A DNA stretch of 60,570 bases from assembly GCF_001422735.1 (NCBI RefSeq), contig NZ_LMLZ01000008.1, forward strand, positions 1-60,570. The letters are read 5' to 3'. Below are positions 36,799-40,524 of the stretch, piece by piece. The position numbers and the translations under genes were made by a program. The stretch is from Acidovorax sp. Leaf78. Lineage in GTDB: Bacteria; Pseudomonadota; Gammaproteobacteria; Burkholderiales; Burkholderiaceae_C. The notes below the pieces were generated by a model that did not search any database, was not told the DNA's origin, and saw only the letters and a program-made list of their open reading frames with translations. Every line of letters begins with the position of its first letter. Positions within the stretch are counted from its first letter, which is position 1.

Positions 36799-38542
36799 AG
36801 CCGCCTCCTCCGCCATTACCACCACGATAACCACCGCCGCGGCGGCCGCCCATGCTGTCTACGCTGGTGCGCATCGGGTCGGGCTGGCCGCCGGCGCCAG
36901 CGCCATGGCCGGACGCGCGGTTGCCCGGATTGCTGTGGCCCGAATGCGTACCGAGGTGTGCGTCTGGACGCGGGGGCTGCGAGTCGTCGTAGCGGGGGGC
37001 GCCACCACCACCATAGCCGCCACCACCGCCGCCGCCGGAGCGACCGCGTGCAGGTGCCTGGCCGCCGGCGCGTGCTCCGCCGCCACCGCCACCGGCACGG
37101 CCGCCACGCGGGCCGTTGCCACCGCCGCCGCCACCAGCGCCAGCACTGGCACCGCCGCCAGCGCGGCCACCACGGCCGCCACCGTTGCCGCCACCCGCAG
37201 GGCGGGGGCCACGCTCGCCGCCGCCACCACCACCGCCACCGCCGGCACCCTGGCCGGCCTTGTTGGTGCGGATGCGTTCCATCATTTCGCTGCGGGCGGC
37301 CTTGGCGGCAGCCTGCATCACGTCACGGCTCGGGGGCTTGCCTGCGCCGCCCCAGATGGTCTGGCGGCCCATGGCGATGGGCTCGGCTTTTTCGCCAGCG
37401 TCGGGGCCGAAGCCTTCGATGACCTGCACGGGAATCTGCTGCTTGGTAAAGCGCTCGATGTCCATCATGAAGCCTTCTTCGTCCATGCAGACCAGGCTGA
37501 CGGCTTCGCCGCTGTTGCCGGCGCGGCCCGTACGGCCGATGCGGTGGACGTAGTCTTCCGAGACGTTCGGGATTTCGTAGTTCACGACGTGCGGCAGCTC
37601 GTCGATGTCGATGCCGCGGGCAGCGATGTCTGTGGCCACCAGGGCGCGGATGTCACCGCTCTTGAAGCCGGCCAGGGCTTGCGTACGGGCGCTCTGGCTC
37701 TTGTTGCCGTGCAGCGCCATGGCGTTCACGCCGTTCTTGGTCAGGAACTCGGCCACGTTGTTGGCGCCGAACTTGGTGCGGGTGAACACCAGCACCTGGC
37801 TCCAGTTGTGCTGCTGGATGATGTGCAGCAGCACTTGCTTCTTCTTGCCGCGGCCCACGGGGTGGATCACCTGGGTGATGCGCTGCACCGTGGTGTTGCT
37901 GGGCGTGACCTGAATGCTCTGGGGGTTCTTGAGCAGTGTGTTGGCCAAGTCGCGGATTTCGTCGCTGAAGGTGGCCGAGAACAGCAGGCTCTGCTTTTCG
38001 CGGGGCACCAGGGCCAGCACTTTCTTCACGTCGTGGATGAAGCCCATGTCCAGCATGCGGTCGGCTTCGTCGAGCACCAGCACCTGCACGGTCGACAGGT
38101 CCAGGAAGCCCTGCTGCTGCAGGTCCAGCAGGCGGCCGGGGGTGGCCACCAGGATGTCCACGCCGCGCTTGATGCGGTCGATCTGCGGGTTCATGCCCAC
38201 GCCGCCGAAGACCACGGTGGAGTTGATGTCGAGGTACTTGCCGTATTCGCGCACGGACTCTTCCACCTGGGCGGCGAGCTCGCGGGTGGGCGTCAGCACC
38301 AGGGCGCGGATGCCCTTGCCGCCGAACTTGTTCTTGGGGGCAGCGCCTTGCGAGAGGCGGTGCAGCAGCGGCAGGGTGAACGCGGCGGTCTTGCCGGTGC
38401 CTGTCTGCGCGCCGGCCAGCAGGTCGTGGCCTGCGAGCACGGCGGGGATGGCCTGGGCCTGAATGGGCGTGGGGGTCTCGTAGCCCGTTTCGTGCACGGC
38501 CTTCAGGATGGCAGGAGCCAGGTTCAATTCGTCAAATGTCAT
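36716..38542 (-). CDS. rhlE: DEAD-box ATP-dependent RNA helicase RhlE
   Basis: A 608-residue RNA helicase of ribosome assembly and RNA turnover. Motifs: Q-motif [21 protein letters not shown], Ia [33 protein letters not shown], and [12 protein letters not shown]. The last 160 residues are a very glycine-rich RGG/YGG tail (for example [18 protein letters not shown]), likely disordered and RNA-binding. Start at [14 protein letters not shown]; an ATG six codons upstream (MGAFND) is also possible. The tail region overlaps the start of the next gene by 83 bases. A 302-base spacer separates it from the divergent ettA. Confidence 0.93.
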
Positions 38543-38785
38543 GTCGTTGAATGCGCCCATCCGGGGCGCTGGTATCGGCCTGTCGTGCAACCGGAGGTTG
38601 CCGAGCCAGTCTCAAGCCGATGAGGTTCATGAGTGGGAGCCCGGAAGTTTGGGTGCTTCCTTCGTCCCCAGCAGCGTGCTGATGCGTCGGGCAACTGGAG
38701 CCCGTCACGAGGCGTATTGTCGCATGGCCTGATAATCTCGGTTTGCACGCAGAATTTCTGCTCACTTTTGCAGGTTAGACACTCA

Positions 38786-38862
38786 ATGGCCCAATACGTT
38801 TTGTCGACACAACTGCCCGCCTTCGGCGGCGCCCACTCGGTTTGCTCGCGGAGGATCATGTA

Positions 38863-38863
<1 letters not shown>
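38786..38863 (+). CDS. Upstream mini-ORF (25 aa) coupled to ettA
   Basis: A 25-codon ORF whose stop TAA overlaps the ettA ATG as TAATG. It begins MAQYVLS, against MAQYVFS for EttA; over these seven codons the DNA differs at five bases, all in third codon positions. The rest (TQLPAFGGAHSVCSRRIM) is unlike EttA. Its ribosome site is weak (CAGGTT, about 12 bases before the ATG), while ettA's GGAGG lies within the end of this ORF. It may be a leader peptide for ettA or a decayed partial duplication. I have no proof that it is translated. Confidence 0.45.

Positions 38864-40524
<1,661 letters not shown>

Follow-up and report, generated by a model that had tools for sequence, protein, structure and literature searches.

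In the available part of PMC12548453, a close stop and start together with a structure that masks the ribosome binding site are described as a setting for translational coupling, by unfolding or by reinitiation. In the coupled pairs treated there the stop and the start lie a short distance apart or overlap, an inhibitory structure is found at the downstream site and upstream translation opens it. The locus which we present here would share these features. It differs from those pairs in two respects: its upstream ORF has 25 codons and begins with the old start of the same gene, and the predicted fold takes in the first codons of ettA.

EttA itself has been connected with a leader peptide. In E. 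coli it acts on MgtL, the leader of mgtA, and the EttA-dependent ORFs described in the accessible portion of PMC11282234 need acidic residues within their first 30 residues. MgtL resembles our case as a leader ORF linked to EttA. However it has an acidic EPDP motif and its output is transcription termination (PMC11282234, same portion), whereas our mini-ORF lacks acidic residues and leads into ettA itself. The msrD leader is also a regulated leader on an ABC-F gene, but according to the part of PMC10314930 at hand it is macrolide-dependent. Among the matches listed for open-licence papers on EttA leader peptides, EttA in Acidovorax, EttA autoregulation and Comamonadaceae leader peptides, we found no leader control of ettA. 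A different kind of comparison is offered by the Rickettsia palindromic elements and MITEs, which have many copies per genome. They are also short palindromic inserts in coding regions, but in our genome we have found one copy, at ettA.

The mini-ORF and the old start of ettA

The window is the whole stretch of DNA analysed, 60,570 nt from Acidovorax sp. Leaf78. In it ettA has a divergent DEAD-box helicase gene on one side and a DUF1631 gene on the other. It is preceded by a mini-ORF with a TAA stop in positions 38861–38863, the last A of which is the first base of the ettA ATG. The features of the locus are collected in Table 1. The initial annotation had reported the 25-codon ORF, the TAATG junction and the MAQYV match of both products, and all of them are present at 38786–38863. 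Over seven codons the two starts have five base differences, all of them in third positions, with a single residue change (L/F), exactly as it had been described. The weak ribosome site ascribed to the mini-ORF is also confirmed: its predicted anti-Shine-Dalgarno duplex has -3.2 kcal/mol, versus -9.5 for ettA. The sequence ATGGCNCARTAYGTN has two occurrences in the 5.75 Mb genome, both at the mini-ORF and ettA; since it is found nowhere else, a chance origin of the matching starts was discarded.

Table 1. Features of the ettA locus in the window, and the tandem units of one relative
Feature	Position	Strand	Remarks
GATAAT, likely -10 of the ettA promoter	38731..38736	+	conserved upstream in congeners
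Small hairpin GCAGAATTTCTGC in the presumed 5' leader	38749..38761	+	similar hairpins in leaders of relatives, by eye
Mini-ORF, 25 codons + TAA (MAQYVLSTQLPAFGGAHSVCSRRIM)	38786..38863	+	ATG at 38786; stop overlaps the ettA ATG
Old (resident) ettA start ATGGCCCAATACGTTTT, now mini-ORF start	38786..38802	+	identical to ettA start of unit-less L091
Inserted unit, predicted four-way junction	38803..38880	+	covariance model 80.8 bits; window among the model's own sequences
P0 closing stem, 5' arm	38806..38816	+	faces ettA codons 2–6; 1/11 pairs broken in window
P1 hairpin CCGCC-TTC-GGCGG	38817..38829	+	alignment fold
P2 hairpin	38830..38854	+	3' arm 38850–38854 GGAGG = ettA Shine-Dalgarno; in window 2/5 outer and 1/2 apical pairs broken
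P3 hairpin	38855..38867	+	3' arm contains ettA ATG 38863–38865; 1/5 pairs broken in window
P0 closing stem, 3' arm	38868..38879	+	ettA codons 2–6; alignment fold
ettA, 553 aa	38863..40524	+	EttA by NCBIfam NF008775, 978 bits
Two tandem units before ettA in G113	L229:1501-1681	-	

The genus and family of the genomes compared (Acidovorax and Comamonadaceae) were assigned from named relatives. The congeneric set has 47 genomes, with ettA present in 44. An extra stretch is found in four of these loci: it has 77 bp in the window (G000), in G019 and in G029, and 76 bp in G025, where the mini-ORF is out of frame because a G run has six bases, not seven, possibly a sequencing error. In the unit-less congeners the same leader enters ettA directly at the position of the mini-ORF ATG. 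The window is identical to the unit-less L091 in the 43 bases before the start, behind the -10-like GATAAT, and in the first 17 bases of the start. Judging from their coordinates, L091 is the same genome as the named locus L004, and G019 the same as L003. We also gathered 80 loci by EttA similarity, the nearest named ones being Acidovorax sp. with 99% EttA identity. The ettA start is visible in 77 of them, and in 75 (74 loci without the unit, plus L003) it is preceded by 100 bases or more; the tandem start arrangement is found in L003 only, among the 77. By comparison of these sequences, the mini-ORF start is the position where most relatives examined begin ettA. The initial annotation had given absence or frameshifts in close relatives as grounds for refutation; the ORF is absent from 40 of the 44 congeners and it is frameshifted in one carrier.

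All 44 congeneric loci have a GATAAT motif at most 130 bases upstream of the first start, and a promoter scan found no full sigma-70 match. The ettA promoter is likely to lie at GATAAT, so that the mini-ORF would be within the ettA transcript. By eye, the small hairpin of Table 1 or variants such as GCGGAAATTCCGC appear in the presumed ettA leaders of many congeners (L083–L126), with the unit present or absent. Six congeners (L115, L119 and L121–L124) have a different ettA leader, about 50 bases longer, with a large predicted hairpin of -24 to -37 kcal/mol.

Predicted fold of the unit and the start of ettA

The extra stretch, which we call the unit, has 76–84 bp, lies after the old start and supplies a second ettA start. 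It is present in 13 carrier genomes which belong to six genera of one family. The aligned copies are predicted to fold in a four-way junction without linkers, formed by a closing stem P0 (GAAACAACTGC with GCAGTaTGTTTT) and hairpins P1, P2 and P3. The alignment has 28 pairs with 92.8% of the cells paired, and eight of the 28 have changed on both sides; shuffles give 2.7 ± 1.1 such changes (none of 500 reaches the observed value) and slid structures two to three. These counts do not include G113a, and the contrast with shuffles may be inflated because the copies are related. With G113a added, the 14 copies have 91.8% of the cells paired and again eight pairs changed on both sides, versus 3.0 in shuffles. 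Examples of compensation are a C-G pair of P1 which becomes G-C in G160 and G339, a C-G pair of P0 which becomes U-A in G852, and the apical G-C pair of P2, found as A-U in five rows and as C-G in one. No such double change is seen in P3. The four-armed fold of the unit is thus a prediction backed by significant covariation. A search of positions 38500–39000 of the window with the Rfam covariance models (E up to 1) gave no match.

Individual copies are quite different in quality. The single-sequence energy lies clearly below that of shuffles in five of the 13 carriers (z = -3.6 in G844, -3.4 in G832, -3.35 in G190, -2.8 in G160 and -2.4 in G319) and is like that of shuffles in the window (-0.35), in G019 (-0.31) and in G339 (-0.71). 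The window has kept 23 of the 28 pairs and G019 has kept 25, while G832 and G844 have all 28. The window's own copy is partly decayed.

The two starts have different codons. The set GCK-CAG-TAY-GTT-TTY is found in the second starts of 12 of the 13 carriers, in none of the 40 unit-less congeners and in three of 148 distinct unit-less loci. At codon 3 all 40 unit-less congeners have CAA and the second starts of 12 carriers have CAG; in G852, the thirteenth, it is CAA and the base which faces it is altered too. The first copies hold resident codons: GTT in the four carriers of the Acidovorax group, GTC in five of the six carriers of genera g103 and g12, as in the unit-less G188 and G271 of g12. 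Third-position differences of this kind can be produced when each start has its own constraint: one is the old resident start, the other a new start whose codons must pair. A fresh tandem duplication, already set aside by the initial annotation, was rejected here too, since the two copies use different sets of codons and several genera share the unit which separates them.

The second start has a strong Shine-Dalgarno (SD) sequence: the predicted duplex has a median of -10.0 kcal/mol in the 13 carriers (range -10.8 to -5.8), with the weakest values, -5.8, in G113 and G852. The starts of ettA without a unit have a median of -1.0 kcal/mol, with two loci at -5 or lower, among 150 loci which count a few genomes twice; a recount on 146 distinct loci gives the same result. 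The mini-ORF starts of the carriers lie between +0.2 and -5.8 kcal/mol. In the family at large ettA begins almost without SD and its first codons are uniform, with CAA as codon 3 in 120 of 148 distinct unit-less loci. When the carriers are folded in context, the SD has an unpaired probability of 0.28 or less in 12 of 13; in G019 it is 0.62, mostly free. The ettA AUG has a median unpaired probability of 0.46 in the carriers (0.11 or less in five of the 13) versus 0.39 in 113 unit-less loci. The AUG is no more paired in carriers than in unit-less loci, so only the masking of the SD supports coupling. In a crude model with a ribosome on codons 7–17, the unpaired probability of the SD is still 0.38 or less in 12 of the 13 carriers. 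As the SD is not freed by a ribosome in the middle of the ORF, opening would need, in this crude model, a ribosome which reaches the stop.

These features suggest a leader coupled to ettA by translation. The unit would have been inserted after the old start, or it may be ancestral and lost elsewhere. With it would have come a new ettA start preceded by GGAGG, and the old one would no longer be in frame. Its predicted fold, with the backing of covariation, pairs GGAGG in P2, the ettA AUG in P3 and codons 2–6 in the closing stem. A ribosome would initiate at the old start, where the SD is weak or absent, open the fold over 25 codons, end on the UAA which overlaps the ettA AUG and restart there; ettA would otherwise be hardly translated. 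Synthesis of EttA would then depend on prior translation of the mini-ORF, with the ettA ribosome site hidden until that moment. This is the explanation which we favour, tentatively, giving it slightly less than an even chance. As the fold of the window is partly worn, control may be weak there. The initial annotation had also proposed a leader which controls ettA. This part of it is probable, and the ORF recurs, with stops which meet the ettA start in 12 of the 13 carriers.

The unit might instead be a worn insertion scar which regulates nothing: translation of ettA would simply have passed to the second start, where the SD is strong, and the old start would be a relic. The pairs lost in the window and in G019 agree with a scar, as do the frameshift of G025, the patchy presence among relatives, the weak constraint on the mini-peptide (pN/pS 0.76 in codons 7–25) and an AUG which is no more paired than in unit-less loci. 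However the compensatory changes in several genera suggest that the fold has been kept by selection there. Also the unit differs less than the fourfold sites of ettA in 60 of 66 pairs between genera and in 8 of 12 pairs within a genus, which again speaks against a scar. We consider a scar somewhat unlikely.

Distribution and origin of the unit

The 13 carriers have 14 copies of the unit, since G113 has two in tandem. Their mini-ORFs end as TAATG in nine cases, as TGAATG in one and as TAACCATG in two, while G025 is out of frame: the stop adjoins or overlaps the ettA start in 12 carriers, including the window (TAATG). When the 61-bp insert was searched by BLAST, 26 of 399 genomes of the family had a match with E of 0.02 or lower. 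We checked the positions for 10 of them. Six have it directly before ettA with E below 1e-3 (G160, G000, G019, G319, G190 and G113); four have it elsewhere, two of them (G248, G252) also with E below 1e-3, the others being G152 and G385. This search scored two candidates per genome and missed G339. A search for the tandem-start pattern gave seven of the 399 family genomes, with G339 and the variant G334 as new ones. The pattern demands ATGGC in the first copy; it missed G019 and would miss similar cases. By genus it was found in 3 of 15 genomes in g103, 3 of 21 in g12 and 1 of 26 in g15. In a sample of the order, 387 of whose 399 genomes lie outside the family, only the window itself has the pattern. 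Further samplings of the family beyond g15, mostly of genomes already searched, gave no new carrier. An ettA match was found in 372 of the 399 family genomes, and presence or absence rests on those. Matches of the covariance model at ettA in L058 (20.6 bits) and L206 (12.5 bits) were rejected: many pairs are broken and the score comes partly from the ettA start.

G334 is a case apart. Its insert (L227:426-540, minus strand) occupies the same site in ettA but is not related to the unit; it comes with an 11-bp hairpin, a mini-ORF MAQYVLAKRSRYCDESQ and identical 17-base copies of the start. Its second start does not have the codon set GCK-CAG-TAY-GTT-TTY. It has AGCGAAAC in common with several units, and we have not counted it as a carrier.

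In an ettA tree of 152 loci, some of them present twice and with carriers over-represented, the 13 carriers need at least eight changes; eight carriers are found in one clade of 14 tips. The changes may be gains, or repeated losses through recombination between the two copies of the start. The divergence of the unit is not correlated with that of ettA (Spearman 0.004). Together with the low divergence given above, this fits constraint plus exchange between species. The unit stays with ettA, because the genes upstream of ettA vary among carriers.

We looked for a source of the unit. In its own genome BLAST found no second copy (the next match has E 0.116), nor did the covariance model over 0.86 of the 5.75 Mb (next match E 5.5); a repeat of its own genome was discarded on these grounds. 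Plasmids gave no match. A phage source was also rejected: there is one 24-base match, in a terminase gene, which we take as chance. The 3' junction pattern of the unit was not found in viral contigs. An island or integrase beside ettA was rejected on a reading by eye of the upstream ORFs of the ten tandem-start loci L227–L236, which are diverse genes with no recognisable integrase among them.

These searches bear on another explanation, a small palindromic DNA element which would spread among species, target the ettA start and be kept as a DNA fold, with the mini-ORF as a by-product. The unit sits precisely behind the old start even where the resident codons differ between lineages, it is in tandem in G113, and the absence of correlation with ettA divergence also fits horizontal spread; the different insert of G334 occupies the same site between identical 17-base flanks. 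Against such an element we find a single copy in the genome by BLAST and by the covariance model (over 0.86 Mb), the negative results in plasmids and viral contigs with the single phage match, and a unit which includes codons of ettA as well as a suitably spaced SD. A DNA element of this type is distinctly unlikely.

The mini-peptide and control by EttA

The initial annotation had read the third-position differences as the mark of selection on the peptide. This reading is not supported: the first copy equals the resident ettA start of relatives which lack the unit, the codons of the second fit base pairing and the inserted part has a pN/pS of 0.76. The pattern is therefore no demonstration of selection on the mini-peptide. 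The value of 0.76 corresponds to codons 7–25, in a set without G025; the other sense frames give 0.96 and 1.01 and the antisense frames 0.96, 0.67 and 1.25. In these codons any selection on the peptide is at most weak. The open frame and its stop are also weak evidence, because stops are rare in the units' other sense frames as well. The first five codons give MAQYV throughout, apart from A2S in G019 and Y4H in the first of the two G113 copies; their conservation may be an inheritance from the time when they were ettA codons.

It could still be thought that selection acts on this EttA-like peptide itself, and that EttA senses its translation and controls its own synthesis. The conserved MAQYV is in favour of such sensing, and so is the fact that EttA can work through a leader peptide, as with MgtL in E. 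coli (PMC11282234, part available). However the match can derive from the old ettA start, and the inserted codons have the pN/pS given above. Furthermore the first 25 residues of the mini-peptides have no acidic residue in any of the 13 carriers, while the known targets, in the same part of PMC11282234, need them. The frameshifted product of G025 has its first acidic residue at position 34; only the variant G334 (MAQYVLAKRSRYCDESQ) has D-E. EttA might control itself through the mini-ORF, but this is unsupported, and the combined reading of a selected peptide sensed by EttA is very improbable. Programmed bypassing, in which ribosomes initiating at the old start would skip from its GUU codon to the GUU of the second copy and so produce EttA, is hardly credible: codon 5 is Val in both copies and the stretch between them is structured, but the second copy's own AUG and SD make a jump unnecessary, the take-off codon, unlike that of known bypass sites, has no stop after it, and in five carriers codon 5 is GUC against GUU.

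The coupled leader is our preferred explanation. A wider proposal may be built upon it, although we think it quite unlikely as a whole: a cloverleaf RNA element without Rfam match would be spreading among related bacteria, only behind the ettA start, and would turn that start into a control ORF, so that a translation factor would be governed from its former initiation site; it could be a sensor through which the levels of EttA respond to EttA or to the state of initiation. If the coupled leader is right, the gene of a factor of early translation would be reached only by ribosomes which first pass its own old start. The locus would then offer a simple system to study how a start codon is captured for regulation, and to ask if EttA is under its own control. 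The gene's own old start would have become its control switch.
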